NCBI GenBank assembly: GCA_019246215.1
Contig: JAFAQT010000032.1
Location: 1 to 36,026 of the forward strand
Length of the DNA stretch: 36,026 nt
Direction: 5' to 3'
Source: Verrucomicrobiota bacterium
GTDB taxonomy: Bacteria; Verrucomicrobiota; Verrucomicrobiia; Chthoniobacterales; JAFAMB01
In this document: one piece after another, positions 22,926 to 33,090 of the stretch
Numbering within the stretch: position 1 is the first letter of the stretch
Layout: the number at the start of each line of letters is the position of its first letter
Notes under the pieces: model-generated
Told to the model about the DNA's origin: nothing
Databases searched by the model: none
What the model saw: the letters and a program-made list of their open reading frames with translations, nothing else
Position numbers and translations under genes: made by a program

Positions 22926-24011
22926 ATGAAAGTCGCAATCGCATGTGGAGGAACGGGCGGACACCTGTTCCCCGGTCTGGCCGTCGCCGAGGTTTTGCGG
23001 AATCGGGGGCATGAGATCCTGCTGCTCATTTCCGAAAAGCAGATAGACGCAGTCGCGGTCGGGGACCGAAAAGAGTTCCGCATTCAGAAGATTCCCGCTG
23101 TCGGCCTGACAAAGGTGGTTTCGATCCAGTTTTTCTTGTTCATCGCGAAGTTCATGAGTGGATTGGTAGACTGCCTGCGTACTTATGGTTCGTTCAAGCC
23201 GGATGCTGTTCTTGGTATGGGGGGGTTCACATCTACCGGACCGATTCTGGCCGGTCGTATAACCGGTCTGCCGACGTTTATCCACGAAGCAAACGCGATT
23301 CCGGGCAAAGCAAATCGGCTGAATGCTTTTCTCTCGAAACAGGTCCTGCTCGGATTCGAGGAGTGTGCGCGCTATTTTCCGAACAAGGCAGTTGAAGTTA
23401 CCGGCACGCCTATTCGCGACAGTCTGCGAGCTCCGGTGGATCGCAGCCGGGCTTTGAGGAATATGCGCCTGAAGAGCGGCTTGCGGACCGTCCTGGTGAT
23501 GGGTGGGAGCCAGGGAGCACATGGCATCAACGAAGCGGTAATAACGGTTCTATCCCGGTTCGTAGAGAAAGAAGTTCAGTTCATCCATCTAACCGGAAAA
23601 CAAGATGAAAACTATGTCTACGAATGTTATCAAAAGGAAGGGATCCCCGCTTTCGTTAGTGCTTTTTACGATCGAATGGAGGAGGCATATAGCGTTGCAG
23701 ACCTGGCGTTAGCCAGGGCTGGAGCCGCCAGCTTGACCGAACTCTCTTACTTCGGTTTACCAACAATCTTGATTCCGTATCCGTTTGCGGCGGAAAATCA
23801 TCAACTTATCAATGCCGAAATTTTTGCGAGACATCGAGTCGCTGAAGTATTAGAAGAGTCGCGTGTCAACGAAGACACCCTGGGCTCATTGATAGAACAT
23901 TTTTTAAATAATGGAGCGACGGTGCACCGTCCTACTGTGCAAACTCAAGCGCCCGGATCGGACACAGCCGCAAATAGGATTGTTGAAATCATCGAGAAAT
24001 TCCGCAAATGA
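22926..24011 (+). CDS. murG: UDP-GlcNAc:lipid I N-acetylglucosaminyltransferase
   Basis: This is a 361-residue GT-B glycosyltransferase at the inner face of the membrane. It converts lipid I to lipid II. It opens with the glycine-rich GGTGGHLFPGLAVAEVL. It has HEANAIPGKANR, a second glycine-rich loop MGGSQGAHGINEA, the donor-site ARAGAASLTELSYFG, and IPYPFAAENHQ. Length is typical. Its stop overlaps the start of murC-murB (ATGA). Confidence 0.97.
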   Translation: MKVAIACGGTGGHLFPGLAVAEVLRNRGHEILLLISEKQIDAVAVGDRKEFRIQKIPAVGLTKVVSIQFFLFIAKFMSGLVDCLRTYGSFKPDAVLGMGGFTSTGPILAGRITGLPTFIHEANAIPGKANRLNAFLSKQVLLGFEECARYFPNKAVEVTGTPIRDSLRAPVDRSRALRNMRLKSGLRTVLVMGGSQGAHGINEAVITVLSRFVEKEVQFIHLTGKQDENYVYECYQKEGIPAFVSAFYDRMEEAYSVADLALARAGAASLTELSYFGLPTILIPYPFAAENHQLINAEIFARHRVAEVLEESRVNEDTLGSLIEHFLNNGATVHRPTVQTQAPGSDTAANRIVEIIEKFRK

Positions 24012-26305
24012 CGTTTGATCTGCCAAAGAAACTTGCCGAATTTCTTCTGAGACATCCGAAGCGGATTCATCTGATAGGAGTCGCGGGCTCCGGAATGAGC
24101 GGGATCGCCGGGCTATTGTTAGCGCTTGGTCATCGCGTGAGCGGATGCGATCGGGTGAGTACATTGGAAACAAGGCGGCTCGAGACACTGGGCCTGAAAT
24201 TTTATCTTCCCCAAACAGAGGAGACGGTTCGTGGCGCCGAATTGGTAGTCTATTCTTCTGCGATCCGAAGCGGGAACCCCGCCTTCGACGAGGCGATCAG
24301 GTTGGGAATTCCCATCGTGCGGCGCGCGGAAGCGTTAGCCGCCATGATGCAATTTAAAAAAGGAATCGTCGTTGCCGGAATGCACGGTAAGACGACGACC
24401 GCCTCGATGACGGCTCACGTCTTGCGAGTGGGCGGGCTTAACCCTTCCCACTATGTGGGCGCCGAGATTCCGATTCTTGGCACTAATGCGCATTGGGAGC
24501 AGACTGGAGACTATCTTGTCGCAGAAGGAGACGAAAGCGACGGAACTCTGCGCATCTATCCTGCTGAGCACGCAATCATCCTAAATATTGAAGAGGAACA
24601 TCTCGATTATTATTCCAACCTTACCGCCATAGAGCAGGTGTTTAACCGGTTCATCGACCAGATCAGCGGCAAAGTCGTCTATTGCGACGATGATCCGCAC
24701 GCTGCACGTCTTTGTTCCACGCGTCCGAATTCCATCTCATACGGGAAAACCGATCGAGCCCTTTACCAATATCGGAATTTTGCTGGTGGCCCGTGCGGAT
24801 CGCGTTTTGAAGTCTGGAGAGCAGACCGATGTCTTGGGAGTTTAGCCCTCGGGGTCCCGGGTGCACACAACGTTAGTAATGCCTTGGGAGCTGTGGCGCT
24901 TGCCACGGAAATGGGGGTGCCGTTCTGCAAGATCGCGGAAGCGCTCGATTCTTTCCGTGGAGCCAGGAGAAGATTCGAGATCAGAATGCAAACCGTCGAC
25001 TACACCGTGGTGGACGATTACGGTCACCATCCAACGGAGATAAAAGCAACGCTCGAGACGGCCCGGTCGCTGCAGTGCAAGCGGCTAATTGTGATGTTTC
25101 AGCCACATCGTTATTCCAGAACCAAGGCGCTCCAGAAGGAGTTCGGTTCGTCGTTCAATCTGGCAGATCTGGTGTACGTGACAGATATTTACGCCGCCAA
25201 TGAAGCGCCGATCCCCGGACTTTCCGGCAACACGATTGTCGCCGCGCTCAGGGCACATAATCATCACGCCGCCGTGTATGTGCCGAAACGAAGCATGCTG
25301 CATCGGGAGGTCGGACGGATCGCGGGGTCGGGAGATTTGATACTGAGTCTTGGAGCGGGAGATATTCACGAAGAAGCCACCAAGCTGATCAAGGATCTGG
25401 AGATATCCGTGCAACTCCGAGAGGTAATGGGCGCCGGAGAAGTGAGATTGTACGAGCCACTTTCCAGACACACGACGCTCCGGGCAGGCGGTCCAGCTCA
25501 ATTTTGGGTAGAGCCTGAAACCCGGGGCGGATTAGCGAATGTTTTGGAATTTTGTGCTGTAAATCGGTTGCCGGTCATGTTCATTGGTCGCGGTTCAAAC
25601 CTTTTGGTCCGTGATGGCGGGATCGCCGGCGTTGTTATTCATTTAAACCGTGGAGATTTTGTGGAGCTCACTGTGAATGGCCTCGAGATTCATGCGGGTG
25701 CGGGTGTTCGGCTCAAGCAACTCGCTGCTGCGGCGCGCAATGCGGGGATTGGCGGGCTCGAGTGGATGGAAGGGATCCCCGGCAGTGTGGGCGGCAGCCT
25801 TCGGATGAACGCCGGAGCGATGGGGTGCGAAACGTTCGAAAAAGTTGTTAGTGTGCAGGTTGTCAGTTCCCGGGGCGAGTTCGAGACGCTCCTTGCCGCC
25901 GAGATGCAGGTTCAATATCGCAGTGTTCCAATGTTGCGGGAGCGGTACGCCGTTTCCGCCATCTTTCGCGGAGAGGAAGCTAGTTTGGAGGCGATTGACC
26001 GAAAACTAATCGAGTCGAGTCACAAACGAAAAACAACCCAGCCGATCGCCGCCAGCGCGGGTTGCATCTTCAAAAATCCGCGCAAAAGCCCCGCAGGCAA
26101 GCTCCTTGAAGAATTGGGGGTGAAGAATCGGCGAGTGGGAGCAGCGCGTGTTTCGGAAGTCCACGGGAACTTCATCGTGAATGATGGCGGTGCGCGTGCC
26201 GAAGAAATTCTTCGGTTAATCGCCGAGATCCAATCCCTAGTCAAGGAACGGCTAGGAATCGATTTAGAAACTGAACTGCAGATTGTCGGGATGGATGATG
26301 AATAG
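24008..26305 (+). CDS. murC-murB: Bifunctional MurC-MurB fusion
   Basis: This is a 765-residue single reading frame joining two peptidoglycan enzymes. Residues about 1-465 are MurC (UDP-MurNAc:L-alanine ligase): IGVAGSGMSGIAGLLLALGH, the ATP loop GMHGKTTT (124-131), EGDESDGTL, and DDYGHHPTEI. Residues about 480-765 are MurB (UDP-enolpyruvyl-GlcNAc reductase, FAD-dependent): RHTTLRAGGPAQFW, FIGRGSNLLVRDGG, GIPGSVGGSLRMNAGA, and SAGCIFKNP, with cysteine where E. coli has the proton-donor serine. No stop or frameshift separates the halves, and both look complete. Fusing them couples formation of UDP-MurNAc with addition of its first amino acid. Confidence 0.95.
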   Translation: MTFDLPKKLAEFLLRHPKRIHLIGVAGSGMSGIAGLLLALGHRVSGCDRVSTLETRRLETLGLKFYLPQTEETVRGAELVVYSSAIRSGNPAFDEAIRLGIPIVRRAEALAAMMQFKKGIVVAGMHGKTTTASMTAHVLRVGGLNPSHYVGAEIPILGTNAHWEQTGDYLVAEGDESDGTLRIYPAEHAIILNIEEEHLDYYSNLTAIEQVFNRFIDQISGKVVYCDDDPHAARLCSTRPNSISYGKTDRALYQYRNFAGGPCGSRFEVWRADRCLGSLALGVPGAHNVSNALGAVALATEMGVPFCKIAEALDSFRGARRRFEIRMQTVDYTVVDDYGHHPTEIKATLETARSLQCKRLIVMFQPHRYSRTKALQKEFGSSFNLADLVYVTDIYAANEAPIPGLSGNTIVAALRAHNHHAAVYVPKRSMLHREVGRIAGSGDLILSLGAGDIHEEATKLIKDLEISVQLREVMGAGEVRLYEPLSRHTTLRAGGPAQFWVEPETRGGLANVLEFCAVNRLPVMFIGRGSNLLVRDGGIAGVVIHLNRGDFVELTVNGLEIHAGAGVRLKQLAAAARNAGIGGLEWMEGIPGSVGGSLRMNAGAMGCETFEKVVSVQVVSSRGEFETLLAAEMQVQYRSVPMLRERYAVSAIFRGEEASLEAIDRKLIESSHKRKTTQPIAASAGCIFKNPRKSPAGKLLEELGVKNRRVGAARVSEVHGNFIVNDGGARAEEILRLIAEIQSLVKERLGIDLETELQIVGMDDE

Positions 26306-27227
26306 CTTTTTATTCGGCAAGAAAATCGCGGTCTTGTGTGGAGGACCAAGCTCGGAACGCGAGGTTTCGCTCCGTTCCGGATCTGCGGTGGCAAATGCGT
26401 TGCGATCTTTGGGAGCGGAGGCCTTTGAGATCGATGTTTTAGATGATAATCTTCACTTACCTGCTGGAACAGATTTGGCGTTTAATGCCCTGCACGGTAC
26501 TTTTGGCGAGGATGGCACCATCCAGTCAATTCTAGATGAGAAAGGGGTCCCTTATACCGGTGAGGGCGAAGTGTCCAGCCGATTAGCTTTTGACAAAATT
26601 GAGAGTAAGAGACGTTTTGTGGAGTGCGGCGTACCAACCGCTCCCTACGTTACTCTGCAAAACGGAGAGATTCCTGATCTCCCGCTTCCGTACGTCGTGA
26701 AAGTGCCCTGTCAGGGATCAAGCGTCGGCGTCTATATGGTAAAATCGATCGCAGAGCGGGACGCCGCACTGCAACAGGCATTCGCACAGGCTAATACGAT
26801 TTTGGCCGAAGCTTTTATCGCCGGTCGCGAACTGACGGTCGGAATCCTCGGCGAAACCGCATTGCCCATCATCGAGATCCGCCCACGCGGGGGATTTTAC
26901 AGTTACGAGAATAAGTACACATGGACGAACCGCGGCGGTGCGGCCGAACACGAATGCCCCGCTCTTCTGAGCCGCTGGGAAAAAAAAAGGGTCGAATCAG
27001 TCGCCCTGGCTGCGCATCGGTCGCTGAGGTTGGAAATATATTCGAGAGTTGATTTGATCCTGGATGCAAACCGAGAGCCTCAGGTGCTGGAAGTGAACAC
27101 AATTCCCGGTATGACCGAAACAAGCTTGTTACCCGAGGCTGCCGCGGCTGCCGATATTTCCATGTCACACCTCTGTGAGTGCATCGTCCGATTGTCGTTG
27201 GAAAGGAGGCTGGCAAGCAAGCGATGA
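26295..27227 (+). CDS. ddl: D-alanine:D-alanine ligase
   Basis: This 310-residue ATP-grasp enzyme makes the D-Ala-D-Ala dipeptide used by MurF. It shows CGGPSSEREVSLRSG at the start, NALHGTFGEDGTIQ, KVPCQGSSVGV, the GRELTVGIL segment, and EVNTIPGMTE near the C-terminus with the metal-binding Glu and Asn. The length is normal. The ORF track begins at TTG 26283; I use ATG 26295 (ATG 26298 is equally possible). It overlaps the end of murC-murB by 11 bases, and its stop overlaps ftsQ (ATGA). Confidence 0.95.
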   Translation: MMNSFLFGKKIAVLCGGPSSEREVSLRSGSAVANALRSLGAEAFEIDVLDDNLHLPAGTDLAFNALHGTFGEDGTIQSILDEKGVPYTGEGEVSSRLAFDKIESKRRFVECGVPTAPYVTLQNGEIPDLPLPYVVKVPCQGSSVGVYMVKSIAERDAALQQAFAQANTILAEAFIAGRELTVGILGETALPIIEIRPRGGFYSYENKYTWTNRGGAAEHECPALLSRWEKKRVESVALAAHRSLRLEIYSRVDLILDANREPQVLEVNTIPGMTETSLLPEAAAAADISMSHLCECIVRLSLERRLASKR

Positions 27228-28444
27228 TCATTCAGAAGAGGATGCGCAAAGGAAATAAACGCGCCTCTACCGCCCGGCAGCGCAAGAGCCAGCATCTTCT
27301 CGATGTTAAGGTCCGCGCGAAAAAAGTGGCTGCACGGCGCATCCAGCGGGTCTTGCTGACGATGTGCGGTTTTATTTTGATCACCTCAATGCTTGGTGGG
27401 ATCGCTTTTGGAGCGAAACGGATTTTCAATGCCCTGTTCTTTGCCAATGCCGATTACGCGTTGCAAGCAATTGAAGTGACATCGGATGGCAACTTGACTC
27501 GTGAAGCGATTTTACGCGCGGCGGATGTGGTCGAAGGGAAAAATATTTTTTCTATCAGTCTTCCTGAAGTGCAGGAAAGACTTGCTGCTTTGCCACAGGT
27601 CGAGGAGAGCCGCATCCAGAGGGTTCTTCCTAATAAATTAGTGATTTCAGTCCAGGAACGGCGGCCGGTGGCATGGGTGGTACCACCGGACACGAATCTT
27701 AATTCGTTTAATTTTGAAAGCGCCTATCTTGTTGATCAGCGCGGGATCCTTTTAAAGACCAAATCCCTGGCTGCGGAATACCTCGGGCTGCCGTTGATTG
27801 TCGGTGTCGACACTTCGAATTGCCAGGCAGGCCAACCCTTGGCACAGGACGACGTCAAGGCCGCGCTGGATCTGATTCGCGCTTCGGCGGAGATTTTGCA
27901 GGGCCGTTTCCAAATTCAAACTATTGACGTTTCAAAAAGCTATTGCCTGACGGTCACGGACAAACAGCACGCGAGCGTTGCCTTCGGAACAGATGATATC
28001 GAATCGCAACTGCACCGTTTAGGAATCCTGCTGAATTATTGCGATAAAAATAGTCGTGAACTGCGGACTGTGAATCTGATGGCGCAGCGGAATGTGCCGG
28101 TGACGTTTGTGCAGGAGACCCAATCGACGGCTCCTAACGGGCCGGCGGGTGGCTCCTCAGTGGGACCGAGTTCAGGTGAGACTCCGCATGCGGAGATTGA
28201 CTTAAAACCCGGGTCGACGAACGAAGGCGCATCCCTGCAGTCGGATCAATCAAAGAGCACCTCACAGCCAAATGGATCAAAATTACAAGAAAAGAAACTT
28301 CAACAAAAACGGGAGCACACCAGATTGAAGTCGTTCAGAGAGGGGCGATCCTCGGGTCCTCCGCCTGCGGGGCAGGAGGGGAGGCAATCTTCGCCTCCGG
28401 TTCGGCGTGCACTCCCTTTAGAGACGACTCGATTGAATGGCTAG
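27224..28444 (+). CDS. ftsQ: Cell-division protein FtsQ with extended C-terminal tail
   Basis: This is a 406-residue bitopic protein. A very basic cytoplasmic region (1-41) precedes one transmembrane helix (about 42-63) and a POTRA domain (about 80-147, LQAIEVTSDGNLTREAILRA ... LPNKLVISVQERRPVAW). The FtsQ/DivIB beta domain runs to about 295. FtsQ links early Z-ring proteins to FtsL, FtsB and FtsWI. The last 110 residues or so are low-complexity, rich in Ser, Pro, Gly, Gln and Lys, beyond the usual end of FtsQ. The start ATG 27224 overlaps the ddl stop; GGAGG is about 13 bases upstream. The 3' end overlaps ftsA by 8 bases. Confidence 0.9.
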   Translation: MIIQKRMRKGNKRASTARQRKSQHLLDVKVRAKKVAARRIQRVLLTMCGFILITSMLGGIAFGAKRIFNALFFANADYALQAIEVTSDGNLTREAILRAADVVEGKNIFSISLPEVQERLAALPQVEESRIQRVLPNKLVISVQERRPVAWVVPPDTNLNSFNFESAYLVDQRGILLKTKSLAAEYLGLPLIVGVDTSNCQAGQPLAQDDVKAALDLIRASAEILQGRFQIQTIDVSKSYCLTVTDKQHASVAFGTDDIESQLHRLGILLNYCDKNSRELRTVNLMAQRNVPVTFVQETQSTAPNGPAGGSSVGPSSGETPHAEIDLKPGSTNEGASLQSDQSKSTSQPNGSKLQEKKLQQKREHTRLKSFREGRSSGPPPAGQEGRQSSPPVRRALPLETTRLNG

Positions 28445-29654
28445 AGACAACATCTTTGTAGGCCTTGAGATTGGCACCTCAAAAATCTGCGCAGTTGTCG
28501 CGGAGGCGCGGAGCGATGGAACGCTGAAGGTCGTTGGTGTGGGAAGTGTCCCCGCGCGCGGCGTACGTAAGGGCGAGATCGTCGATTTTGAAACCGCAAA
28601 GAGGTGTGTCCACGACGCAATCGTAGACGCCGAAGAGAAGAGCGACGTAGAAATCAGCGAAGTTTATCTAGGGATTACCGGGAGTCATATTCGAAGTTTC
28701 AACAATCGTGGCGTGGTGGTTCTCGAAGAAGGAAGAGAAGAGATCGACGAGCAAGACCTGGACGACGTCCGCACCAATGCGCGGGAAGTCAGTTTGCCGA
28801 TGGAAGATTGCATCCTCCATACGATCATCCAGCATTATTATGTAGACGGGCAAGACGGAGTTCTTAACCCGGTCGGCTTGCTCGGAAAGAAGCTGGAGGC
28901 GGATTTTCATATCGTTTATGGAATCCGCACACGAATCCAAAACGCGATCCGCTGTGTGAAGGAATTGGAACTCGAACCGGCGGACGTGATCATCAACTCT
29001 TTGGCCACTGCCCAGGCCGTTTTGGAGAAAAACCAAAAACAATTGGGAGCGATCGTGATCGATATTGGCGGTGGAACGACCGATTTTGTTGTTTATGTCG
29101 ACGGCGCCGTGAAGCAGAGCGGAGTCCTCTCCATTGGAGGTGACCACATCACGAACGATATCTCCATTGGGCTGAAAATCCCCTCGGCACGCGCTGAAAA
29201 ACTCAAGGTTGACGAAGGGAACGTTACCCTCGGAACAGCATTTCCGGGCGAAACAATTTTACTCAAGGACGAAACAGGCTTTGCCGGCAGGGAAATAGAA
29301 AGAGAGCCATTGAATCAGATCATTCACGAACGCCTGCGTGAAGCTCTGGAGATCGTCAAGCGGCAGATCGAGGCGGATCAAAATCTCCATTACGTTGGAG
29401 CAGGAGTATTCATTACCGGAGGCTGCAGCCAGATTCGGGGGCTCGAACATCTCGCGTCCGACATTTTTGGAATGCCGGTGACCATGGCTCATGCGCTGCC
29501 GATGGCCGGAGTGACATCCGCGTTCGAGAATCCGCAGTTCTCAACTGCGCTGGGTTTAGTGAAGTACGCGCACCTGGTGCAGATAGACAGGCCCGCTTCC
29601 GGCGGCCTTATTCGGAACGCGTTTCAGAAAATCAAAGGAATTTTTCGAAATTAA
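28437..29654 (+). CDS. ftsA: Cell-division actin homologue FtsA
   Basis: This is a 405-residue actin-fold ATPase that anchors FtsZ filaments to the membrane. It has the phosphate-1 loop GLEIGTSKICAVVAE, the 1C-domain region FETAKRCVHDAI ... VEISEVYLGITG, the phosphate-2 loop VIDIGGGTTDFVVY, and the adenosine motif FITGGCSQIRGL. The C-terminus, IRNAFQKIKGIFRN, is an amphipathic helix of the kind FtsA uses for membrane binding. Length is typical. ftsZ follows 9 bases after its stop. Confidence 0.96.
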   Translation: MARDNIFVGLEIGTSKICAVVAEARSDGTLKVVGVGSVPARGVRKGEIVDFETAKRCVHDAIVDAEEKSDVEISEVYLGITGSHIRSFNNRGVVVLEEGREEIDEQDLDDVRTNAREVSLPMEDCILHTIIQHYYVDGQDGVLNPVGLLGKKLEADFHIVYGIRTRIQNAIRCVKELELEPADVIINSLATAQAVLEKNQKQLGAIVIDIGGGTTDFVVYVDGAVKQSGVLSIGGDHITNDISIGLKIPSARAEKLKVDEGNVTLGTAFPGETILLKDETGFAGREIEREPLNQIIHERLREALEIVKRQIEADQNLHYVGAGVFITGGCSQIRGLEHLASDIFGMPVTMAHALPMAGVTSAFENPQFSTALGLVKYAHLVQIDRPASGGLIRNAFQKIKGIFRN

Positions 29655-29663
29655 TCCAGCAAT

Positions 29664-31055
29664 ATGGTGCAGCTAAATCGACAGTATGATCGAGCGAATA
29701 ATTCGGGCGAACCAATCCACGTGAAAGTGGTTGGAGTTGGCGGCGCAGGCTCCAACATCCTGGATCGCGTGATGCTTGACGGCATTGAAGCGGCGGAATT
29801 GGTAGCCATTAACACGGATGTTCAGTCGCTCACGGCGTCTGTGGCGGCTCATAAGGTGCAGCTTGGTCGAAATCTCACACGCGGTCTTGGTTCCGGTGGT
29901 GACCCCGAACTCGGTTATGCTGCTGCCGAAGAAGCAACAGACGACATTCGGTCTGTCCTGCAAGGGGGGACCGTCGTTTTCTTGTGTGCCGGTTTGGGCG
30001 GCGGGACTGGATCCGGGGCGGGGCCATTGGTCGCTCAAGTTGCAAAAGAGGAAAATGCCTTGGTGCTGGCGTTTGCGGCTGTCCCTTTCAGTTTCGAAGG
30101 ACGCCGGCGCTGCGCACAGGCAGAGGAAAGTCTGACCCGATTGCGCGCGGTGTGCGACGCGGTAGTTTGTTTCGAGAATGATCGCATGGCAGAAATCACC
30201 CTGCCCCGGATGGGAATCCACGAGGCGTTCGCCGCGGCCGATCTTACCGTTTCGCAAAGTATTCGTTCCGTGGCTGCTCTCCTTCAGCGCCCTGGGCTGT
30301 TGCACATCGGGTTTGACGACGTTTGCGCTGTGCTGCGGAACGGAGATGCGCGCGCCCTTTTTGGGTACGGAGAGGCAGATGGTGAAAACCGCGCGCATGA
30401 CGCGCTGGCTAAAGCACTTAAGAGCCCTTTGATGAACCGCGGCGCGCTGCTGGAGAACGCTTTTCACGCCATCGTTCACATCTGCGGCGGTCCCAATATT
30501 ACCCTGGGCGAAGTTCAAATCATCATGGAAGAGCTTAATCGGCACATTAATGATCAGACCCAGCTTTTTATGGGGATCGGCATTGAGACCCGCATGGGGA
30601 ACCGTCTTTCTGTGTCCGTTCTAAGCTCTCTGGGCAATGGCTTGGGAAAACCGATCGCTCAATTCCGCCAAAGAGCGGTCTATCCGGTCGAACCTCTACC
30701 GCAACCGAATGTCAAACCGGAACCTTGGAAGCCCGCTGCAGTTTCCGAGCTCCCTCCTAAAGCGGCTGCGCAGGAGCAGGCGGGTGCAATTGGCTACGCC
30801 CCGGAGCGAGGCGAAGAAGAATTGATGCTGTCTAGCACCCAATCCGAAACCCATAAGCCCGCGCAAACTCGTCCCCCCGCGAAATTGGACGCGAAATCGC
30901 AAACGGGGAGCGCGAAGAAGGTCGAAGCGAAACAGGAGATATTACAGTTCGAGCCGGTTTCACGCGGTCGCTTTGAGAAGAGCGAACCCACGATCATTGA
31001 TGGTCAGGACCTGGACATTCCAACCTTCCTGCGAAAGAATGTCAGAATCAGGTAG
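29664..31055 (+). CDS. ftsZ: Cell-division tubulin homologue FtsZ, with divergent T7 loop
   Basis: This is a 463-residue GTPase that forms the Z-ring. The GTP site has GVGGAGSN (24-31), NTD (50-52), GGGTGSG (112-118, usually GGGTGTG) and FEGRRR. The C-terminal tail carries the conserved peptide DIPTFLRKN, used to bind FtsA. The T7 synergy loop, usually NVDFADV, reads HIGFDDV (214-220). The Asn and the first catalytic Asp are replaced by His and Gly, and only the second Asp (D219) is kept. A Pro/Ala/Lys-rich linker of about 110 residues joins body and tail. It ends the dcw cluster and is convergent with aguA. Confidence 0.95.
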   Translation: MVQLNRQYDRANNSGEPIHVKVVGVGGAGSNILDRVMLDGIEAAELVAINTDVQSLTASVAAHKVQLGRNLTRGLGSGGDPELGYAAAEEATDDIRSVLQGGTVVFLCAGLGGGTGSGAGPLVAQVAKEENALVLAFAAVPFSFEGRRRCAQAEESLTRLRAVCDAVVCFENDRMAEITLPRMGIHEAFAAADLTVSQSIRSVAALLQRPGLLHIGFDDVCAVLRNGDARALFGYGEADGENRAHDALAKALKSPLMNRGALLENAFHAIVHICGGPNITLGEVQIIMEELNRHINDQTQLFMGIGIETRMGNRLSVSVLSSLGNGLGKPIAQFRQRAVYPVEPLPQPNVKPEPWKPAAVSELPPKAAAQEQAGAIGYAPERGEEELMLSSTQSETHKPAQTRPPAKLDAKSQTGSAKKVEAKQEILQFEPVSRGRFEKSEPTIIDGQDLDIPTFLRKNVRIR

Positions 31056-31099: not shown

Positions 31100-32143
31100 T
31101 TAAACCGCCGGTTGCTGTTGGGTCAGGCAATGAAAAGCGCCAAGACCCCAGATCAGTTCTGTACAATCGATTGGCAAGACCCTGCGACCCGGGAAGCAAT
31201 GCTGAAGAGTTTCGTGCGCCTGTTTGTCATTTGGTGAAGAGAACACGGGCAAAAGGATCACCTTGTTGGCGATGTAAAAATTCGCGTAGCTTGCTGGAAG
31301 GCGGCGGCCTTCCTTATCCACTCTCGGCGGCATCGGAAGCGTACGTACTTCGAGCGAGGTACCGTTCTCGGCTTTCATCGTTTTGAGTAACCCTAGGTTC
31401 GCCAGCAACGGTTCGAAATTTGGATCTTTTGGGTCCTCCTCAATAGCTGTCAGAACGGTTGTCTGGCCGACGAACCTGCTAATGTCGTCGATATGCCCAT
31501 CCGTGTCGTCACCTTCGATGCCGTCACCTAACCAGAGAATGTTGGTGACCTGCAAATAATCACGCAGAGATCTTTCGATCTCGTATTTTGATTTTCCAGG
31601 GTTGCGATTGGGGTTAAGAAGACAGGATCCGGTTGTCAGCAGACTTCCGGTGCCATTAACGTCAAACGAACCGCCTTCCATGACCAATCCGGGAGAGTAT
31701 ACAGGCAGGCGAAGATGTGCTGCGACCCGGGTCGGGACTACCTCATCGAGATCAAAGGGAGGGTATTTGCCGCCCCAGGCATTGTAATCCCAATCCACGA
31801 TAGCGAGCTGCGGGTCGCTGTCGCGTTTAATGAAGATCGGGCCGTGATCGCGGCACCATGGTTCGTTAGTAGGGATTTGAAAATACTCAACGTGACTCGT
31901 GTCGATATCCTTCAGCAATAAACGCACATGGCGTTCGTGATCTTCATCATTCACATTTATTCTTACTTTTTCCGATTCACGTAGTGCGTCGACCAGCTGG
32001 ACGAATACCGGCATCACCTCGTCGTATGCATCGGGGAAACTGATTCCCTCCCGTCGCGGCCAAGAGAGCCACGTCGCTTCGTGCGGTTCCCATTCGGCCG
32101 GCAGGCGATATCCCTGTGCCGCTGGACAATTCTCAGTAAACAT
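31100..32143 (-). CDS. aguA: Agmatine deiminase
   Basis: This 347-residue enzyme converts agmatine to N-carbamoylputrescine and ammonia. It belongs to the Porphyromonas-type peptidyl-arginine deiminase fold. Features include RLPAEWEPHEATWLSWP at the start, PWCRDHGPIF, DWDYNAWGGKYPP, VMEGGSFDVNGTG, the GDDTDGHIDD active-site histidine region, and GLGAFHCLTQQQP with the catalytic cysteine near the C-terminus. Length is typical. It lies 74 bases downstream of aguB on the same strand, so the two make an operon for putrescine synthesis from agmatine. Confidence 0.95.
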   Translation of the reverse strand: MFTENCPAAQGYRLPAEWEPHEATWLSWPRREGISFPDAYDEVMPVFVQLVDALRESEKVRINVNDEDHERHVRLLLKDIDTSHVEYFQIPTNEPWCRDHGPIFIKRDSDPQLAIVDWDYNAWGGKYPPFDLDEVVPTRVAAHLRLPVYSPGLVMEGGSFDVNGTGSLLTTGSCLLNPNRNPGKSKYEIERSLRDYLQVTNILWLGDGIEGDDTDGHIDDISRFVGQTTVLTAIEEDPKDPNFEPLLANLGLLKTMKAENGTSLEVRTLPMPPRVDKEGRRLPASYANFYIANKVILLPVFSSPNDKQAHETLQHCFPGRRVLPIDCTELIWGLGAFHCLTQQQPAV

Positions 32144-32217
32144 CTTCCCTGGCGTGCTCCCGGGCTTCTCCTCTAATCTGTGGAAGGTACTCTGCGCTCA
32201 AAACTGCGGTTGTTCTA

Positions 32218-33090
32218 TCAATCGATGTAACGCTTGCTTATTTCTGCATATGCGTCGACGCGACGATCTCGGAGGAAGGGCCAATGGTTTCGCTGCAGCT
32301 CCAATTCGCCGAGATCAATCTCCGTCACCAGGGTTTCTTCCTTGTCCACGGAGCCCTTTTCAATGATCTGTCCTGACGGATTCGCGACAAAGCTCTGTCC
32401 CCAGAATTCAATGCCGTCTCCTCCGGCAGGCGCTTCATGCCCTGTTCTATTCGATACCGCCACGTAACATCCGTTTGCGATCGCGTGGGATCGCTGAATC
32501 GTTTCCCAGGCCGAATACTGCCGCTCGCCATAAACTTTCTTCTCCCTGGGATGCCACCCGATCGCAGTTGGGTAGAAAAGGATTTCGGCACCGCTGAGTG
32601 CCGTCAGCCTGGCACCTTCCGGATACCATTGGTCCCAACAAATCAGTACTCCTATTGTTGCGAACTTTGTCTTCCAGGATTTGAATCCGAGATCACCGGG
32701 GGCGAAATAGAATTTCTCATAAAAGAGCGGATCGTCCGGGATATGCATTTTCCGATACTTGCCTATGCAACTGCCGTCAGAATCGAGAATGGCGGCTGAA
32801 TTGTGGTAAAGCCCCGCCGCGCGCCTTTCAAAAATCGGGGCGATAATCACGACGCCGAGTTCTTTGGCGACTTTGCCCAAACGCATAGTGGTCGGCCCGG
32901 GAATTTCTTCTGCGAATCGAAAATATTCGTGGTCTTCGGTTTGGCAAAAGTAGATCGTGTTGAAAATTTCCTGGAGGCAAATAATGTTGGCACCCTCCGA
33001 AGCCGCGTTGCGGATCATTCGTTCCGCCTTGTCTACGTTTTCAAGGGGATTGACCGAACATCGCATCTGCACCAAGCCCAGTTTCAGCAT
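32218..33090 (-). CDS. aguB: N-carbamoylputrescine amidase
   Basis: This 290-residue nitrilase-superfamily enzyme hydrolyses N-carbamoylputrescine to putrescine, CO2 and ammonia. The Glu-Lys-Cys triad is visible as E41 (LQEIF), K114 (KYRKMHIPDD) and C151 (ICWDQWYPE). The segment LFYEKFYFAPGDLGFK and the end NHWPFLRDRRVDAY match this subfamily rather than general nitrilases. It is first in a two-gene unit with aguA. No arginine decarboxylase is seen in the window, so the source of agmatine lies elsewhere. Confidence 0.94.
   Translation of the reverse strand: MLKLGLVQMRCSVNPLENVDKAERMIRNAASEGANIICLQEIFNTIYFCQTEDHEYFRFAEEIPGPTTMRLGKVAKELGVVIIAPIFERRAAGLYHNSAAILDSDGSCIGKYRKMHIPDDPLFYEKFYFAPGDLGFKSWKTKFATIGVLICWDQWYPEGARLTALSGAEILFYPTAIGWHPREKKVYGERQYSAWETIQRSHAIANGCYVAVSNRTGHEAPAGGDGIEFWGQSFVANPSGQIIEKGSVDKEETLVTEIDLGELELQRNHWPFLRDRRVDAYAEISKRYID

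Follow-up and report, generated by a model that had tools for sequence, protein, structure and literature searches.

The FtsZ protein encoded in the window, a 36,026-nucleotide stretch of DNA from a Verrucomicrobiota bacterium, does not have the NxDxxD motif of canonical FtsZ in its T7 loop but an alternative that is itself conserved, (H/R/K/other)-x-G-(F/L)-D-(D/E). The altered loop is a fixed state, beyond chance, of a clade made up of the window's order with families f15 and f35, and the clade rather than the window gene is the unit of interest. An earlier note on this DNA had described the loop as having lost catalytic residues. Its account of the residues, the alignment and the rest of the protein stands, but the window gene is only one of many that share the change. 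The canonical residues are indeed gone; throughout the main part of the clade, however, Gly209 (E. coli numbering) never varies and D211 rarely does, a pattern suggesting a conserved replacement motif.

Table 1. Positions in the window of ftsZ, its upstream neighbors and the FtsZ elements discussed in the text
Feature	Position	Strand	Remarks
ftsQ	27179..28444	+	
ftsA	28437..29654	+	immediately 5' of ftsZ
ftsZ	29664..31055	+	463 aa; only FtsZ/tubulin homologue found in genome
Tubulin signature GGGTGSG (T4 loop)	29997..30017	+	intact
Arg149 (E. coli R142, S. aureus R143)	30108..30110	+	R in 131/131 clade sequences
T7 (synergy) loop and start of helix H8, GLLHIGFDDV, residues 211-220	30294..30323	+	
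His214 (place of E. coli Asn207; S. aureus N208, K+ ligand)	30303..30305	+	
Gly216 (place of E. coli Asp209; S. aureus D210, catalytic swinging Asp)	30309..30311	+	
Asp218 (place of E. coli Ala211)	30315..30317	+	D in 108/117 clade sequences
Asp219 (retained counterpart of E. coli Asp212)	30318..30320	+	D/E in 116/117
C-terminal conserved peptide DLDIPTFLRKNVRIR (FtsA-binding tail)	31008..31052	+	

The dcw cluster of the window, in the order mraW, ftsI, murE, murF, mraY, murD, ftsW, murG, murC-murB fusion, ddl, ftsQ, ftsA and ftsZ, is intact and otherwise ordinary. Within it, murC and murB form one fused open reading frame of 765 amino acids (window 24008-26305), and the same fusion is described for Verrucomicrobium spinosum. 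Beyond ftsZ, a gene of the peptidyl-arginine/agmatine deiminase family (31100-33090) is present on the opposite (-) strand and adjoins a carbon-nitrogen hydrolase, the usual pair for putrescine formation from agmatine.

The translated FtsZ matched the Pfam families Tubulin (PF00091; 1.6e-41, 143 bits) and FtsZ_C (PF12327; 2.5e-16, 60 bits), both above cut-off. An AlphaFold model showed the FtsZ fold, the best Foldseek matches all being FtsZ with target TM-scores mostly of 0.85-0.92. The T4 signature agrees with the FtsZ pattern GGGTG(S/T)G, and the C-terminal DLDIPTFLRK corresponds to the FtsA-binding peptide YLDIPAFLRK of E. coli. The remaining motifs of the GTP site (NTD, GGGTGSG, FEGxxR and ENDR) and the tail DLDIPTFLR were all found, in agreement with the earlier description of both as intact. 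With the canonical FtsZ proteins of E. coli, Staphylococcus aureus and Bacillus subtilis the window protein thus has in common the fold, the T1-T6 nucleotide site, the FtsA-binding tail and the dcw position. By contrast, the T7 loop reads HxGxDD where these proteins have NxDxxD.

Comparison of GLMNVDFADV of E. coli with GLLHIGFDDV of the window revealed the changes N207H, D209G and A211D with D212 kept (E. coli numbering, as used hereafter for the clade), the last Asp alone of NxDxxD being retained in HIGFDD. The loop aligned without gaps to E. coli FtsZ in two alignments and to the sequences GLINLDFADV and GLINVDFADV of solved FtsZ structures. A misplaced loop was thereby ruled out, and the first reading of HIGFDDV (Asn to His, first Asp to Gly, second Asp kept) was confirmed, as was the shifted Asp at 218, which occupies the place of E. 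coli A211. In the AlphaFold model T7 is located between helices H7 (185-208) and H8 (217-225), at a mean local confidence of 62-88, with Gly216 directly preceding H8 and D218 and D219 in its first turn.

No second FtsZ or tubulin was found in the window genome (3.81 Mb, 443 contigs, 95.9% complete), which gave a single match and no second divergent paralogue beside a canonical FtsZ. The single-contig relatives G423 and G284 likewise contain one tubulin-family gene each. A canonical second FtsZ doing the work, raised at the outset as an observation that would overturn the interpretation, was ruled out by these genome searches.

FtsZ sequences were sampled from the window's order (197 genomes searched), from the same class and phylum, from named genome contigs and from family f35, and the canonical baseline beyond Verrucomicrobiota was taken from solved structures and papers. 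The clade set (n = 131) comprises the order together with f15, which is presumably Akkermansia-like, and f35; two f2 genomes and one f13 genome of the order, which also lack D209, were left out of it because their FtsZ aligns poorly. Exclusion of f6, f7, f9 and f11 gave a main-part set of 117. D209 was present in 0/131 clade sequences (G 124, T 4, A 1, N 1, S 1). In the main part, Gly209 was found in 117/117 sequences and, with redundancy reduced to 80% identity, in 49/49; within the 305-column core it is one of the columns that never vary. Position 212 was D or E in 116 of the 117, and position 207 was basic in 98 (R 46, H 28 and K 24, with N 9 and other residues 10). D211 was present in 108/117 (92%), as against A211 in 21 of the 30 sequences outside the clade; this outside set, drawn from other families of the class and phylum and restricted to those with well-aligning FtsZ, had N207 in 29, D209 in 25 and D212 in 29. 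Across the whole clade set R142 was retained in 131/131, and position 45 was D in 127 and E in 4. Many deeper Verrucomicrobiota families vary at 207, 209 and 212, and T7 is therefore labile across the phylum. The D209-less clade also has Glu for Pro before ND(R/K) (ENDRM; E. coli column 164; 86% of the set reduced to 80% identity) and Met168 (E. coli numbering), columns 164 and 168 being fixed differently from other families.

In a tree of 83 FtsZ sequences from which columns 205-214 (T7) had been left out, a branch supported at 100/99 set the 54 rows from these families, all of them D209-less, apart from the others; D209 occurred in 0/54 rows inside the clade versus 26/29 outside. NxDxxD was most simply replaced once, in the common ancestor of the order, f15 and f35. 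Inside the clade, an 11-row group (f6, f7 and f9) is without D211, and a 43-row group (support 98/91) mostly has it. Because the outgroups carry A, N or S at 211, the sequence of events is most simply read as D209 being lost first and D211 gained later. The gain most likely took place on the branch leading to the larger subclade, and on this simplest reading D211 reverted in the V. spinosum line.

All four GGN codons are in use for Gly209 (GGG 29, GGC 29, GGT 19, GGA 14), indicating conservation at the level of the protein residue. The core dN/dS against the nearest relative was 0.055 (dN 0.031, dS 0.57), other pairs being near or past saturation at synonymous sites. The alternative motif is under strong purifying selection and not in decay. 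Whether G209 is coupled to D211 or to a basic residue 207 was tested with correction for the tree, on 4 independent pairs (p = 1); with so few independent changes, no such coupling is claimed. Coupling between residue 47, the second contact of the K+ ion, and residue 207 was also considered and rejected as not clean, f15 having R47 with N207 mostly kept and the order mostly Q47 with H or R at 207.

Both internal sequencing primers given by Yee et al. for V. spinosum ftsZ (PMC1845146) matched locus L277 exactly in genome G423, a single contig of 8.2 Mb with one tubulin-family gene. The T7 loop encoded there reads GIVRMGIADL (RMGIAD), with N207R, D209G, Ala at 211 and D212 kept. V. spinosum divides by binary fission, and its ftsZ is essential by transposon sequencing (PMC12283558). 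An FtsZ without N207 and D209 can therefore serve as an essential division protein, and NxDxxD is typical of FtsZ yet not essential for membership of the family. The V. spinosum protein (VerFtsZ; PMC1845146) belongs to the same clade as the window protein and resembles it in the absence of N207 and D209 and the retention of D212; it differs in having Arg at 207, Ala at 211 and Arg at 47 and a far longer C-terminal linker (677 versus 466 amino acids, stop to stop). The expectation that the window FtsZ is probably functional is judged to be right, and altered GTPase activity or filament dynamics are plausible.

A reciprocal change was found elsewhere in the phylum. In families f21, f24, f46 and f48, which are presumably Opitutus-like, N207 and D209 are kept, and position 212 is T, A, G or S in 13/13 sequences (loci L170-L177, L182, L188, L189 and L216). 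These families form one clade (support 100/100), and in two of its genomes, G273 and G279, each a single contig, the D212-less FtsZ is the sole tubulin-family gene. Placement of this group as sister of the D209-less clade gave an AU p of 0.43, the data fitting either placement. Other unusual proteins were also observed. Family f20 (L250, L252, L254 and L257; genomes of 2.2-2.5 Mb) has FtsZ-like proteins with a scrambled T7, e.g. PFDSTN, in which the Pfam Tubulin domain is still matched but the FtsZ C-terminal domain of Pfam is not. Genome G313 (family f39) has two FtsZ-type genes, L208 and L209, both without N207 and D209 by alignment. The f35 genomes G303 and G315 contain, besides the altered FtsZ, four and two more strong tubulin-domain genes, respectively, in adjacent pairs; these pairs are probably BtubA/BtubB, so the two genomes are likely Prosthecobacter.

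In filaments of S. aureus FtsZ, D210 (D209 in E. coli) swings and so places the attacking water, which D213 (D212) holds together with R143 of the adjoining subunit; a K+ ion in T7 is bound by N208 (N207) and locked in by Q48 of the neighbor. Each of the substitutions D210N, N208L and D213N prevents assembly (PMC8936486). We favor, with slightly less than even confidence, the interpretation that the alternative motif replaced NxDxxD once and supports a working, polymerizing GTPase by means of D/E212 and D211, often with a basic residue 207 in the role of K+. The attacking water would be held by D/E212, and D211, at the start of H8, would restore the lost acidic charge and handle the water together with D/E212; Arg142 and D45 of the neighboring subunit are kept. 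A basic residue at 207 (H, R or K) may take the place of the K+-holding Asn or of the ion itself, with a parallel in P-loop NTPases, for which Arg/Lys fingers and K+ ions are alternatives (PMC6310460). If so, hydrolysis should depend less on K+, which has a ten-fold effect in S. aureus FtsZ, and would probably be slower; other FtsZ proteins turn over a few GTP per min (PMC6528577). D211 is not obligatory, since V. spinosum-type FtsZ has A or S at 211, and replacement of K+ is not general, since most of f15 has N at 207 and S, P, A or Q is found there in others. Counting against the proposal, the S. aureus substitutions D210N and N208L abolish assembly. The positions altered in the clade are those changed in these mutants and in E. 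coli D209A and D212G; the laboratory single mutants fail in assembly or complementation, whereas the changes in the clade are natural, combined and fixed.

The chief rival to this mechanism is that clade FtsZ polymerizes with GTP but shows very slow or almost no hydrolysis, the ring serving mainly as a scaffold turned over by other means. Two of the three catalytic side chains of T7 are missing, and single mutants there abolish assembly in S. aureus; moreover, E. coli FtsZ D212G, which fails to complement, can support growth once genomic suppressors are present (PMC5405962), and division by a T7-impaired FtsZ is thus possible in cells with an adapted background. A scaffold, however, would have no obvious need for the conservation of D45 and R142, which serve hydrolysis or Mg binding on the nucleotide side, or of an acidic residue 212, and we regard this rival as serious though rather unlikely. 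Somewhat less likely still is that D/E212 catalyzes alone, with Gly209 and D211 merely re-capping the start of H8 and playing no chemical role. The modeled H8 starts at 217, with Gly216 as cap and D218 and D219 in the first turn, where acids stabilize a helix, and Ala at 211 in V. spinosum agrees with this. In tubulin, Asn and Asp are retained at the positions of 207 and 209, and Glu254 falls at that of 212. As the catalytic acidic residue of the T7 loop of α-tubulin (PMC13394414), Glu254 is comparable with the acidic 212 found here. An absolutely invariant Gly209 is nevertheless hard to reconcile with capping, since capping residues usually vary.

The two remaining explanations are very improbable. 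A divergent second FtsZ of CPR bacteria branches with Verrucomicrobiota (PMC9871819). Verrucomicrobial FtsZ has already been described as fast-evolving and among the most divergent (PMC9871819; PMC2474590), as might be expected of a decaying protein that is no longer important, but a pseudogene or relaxed constraint was ruled out by the invariant Gly209, the dN/dS value, the intact dcw cluster and the essentiality of ftsZ in V. spinosum (PMC12283558). Misalignment, sequencing error or an overlooked canonical FtsZ found no positive support; a missed gene is formally possible in a 443-contig assembly at 95.9%, but the T7 loop is of one type in 131 clade sequences, and the two single-contig relatives have no further tubulin-family gene.

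Yee et al. (2007) mark eight unusual positions of V. spinosum FtsZ in a figure and leave T7 undiscussed in the text (PMC1845146). A literature search, the coverage of which did not extend to Pilhofer 2007 and 2008, which could mention T7, found no report of a fixed loss of D209 or D212. N207, D209 and D212 count as conserved catalytic residues, at which changes made in the laboratory stop assembly or division. In nature, a large clade with single-copy FtsZ has fixed such changes, another clade has the reciprocal one, and the textbook catalytic loop of FtsZ has a working alternative. The canonical motif is accordingly a poor guide to FtsZ function or to the action of T7-directed inhibitors. Since the first clade has a genetically tractable member in V. 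spinosum, the pair of clades makes it possible to test directly which T7 residue carries out the chemistry, what K+ contributes and whether division needs GTP turnover. Tentatively, and as a possibility well short of even, essential division in the clade would run on a rebuilt FtsZ active site, in which the water-positioning Asp is gone, an acid stands two residues into H8 and a basic side chain replaces K+, a neighboring lineage having dispensed instead with D212. If this is true, FtsZ catalysis would have at least two natural alternatives to NxDxxD.
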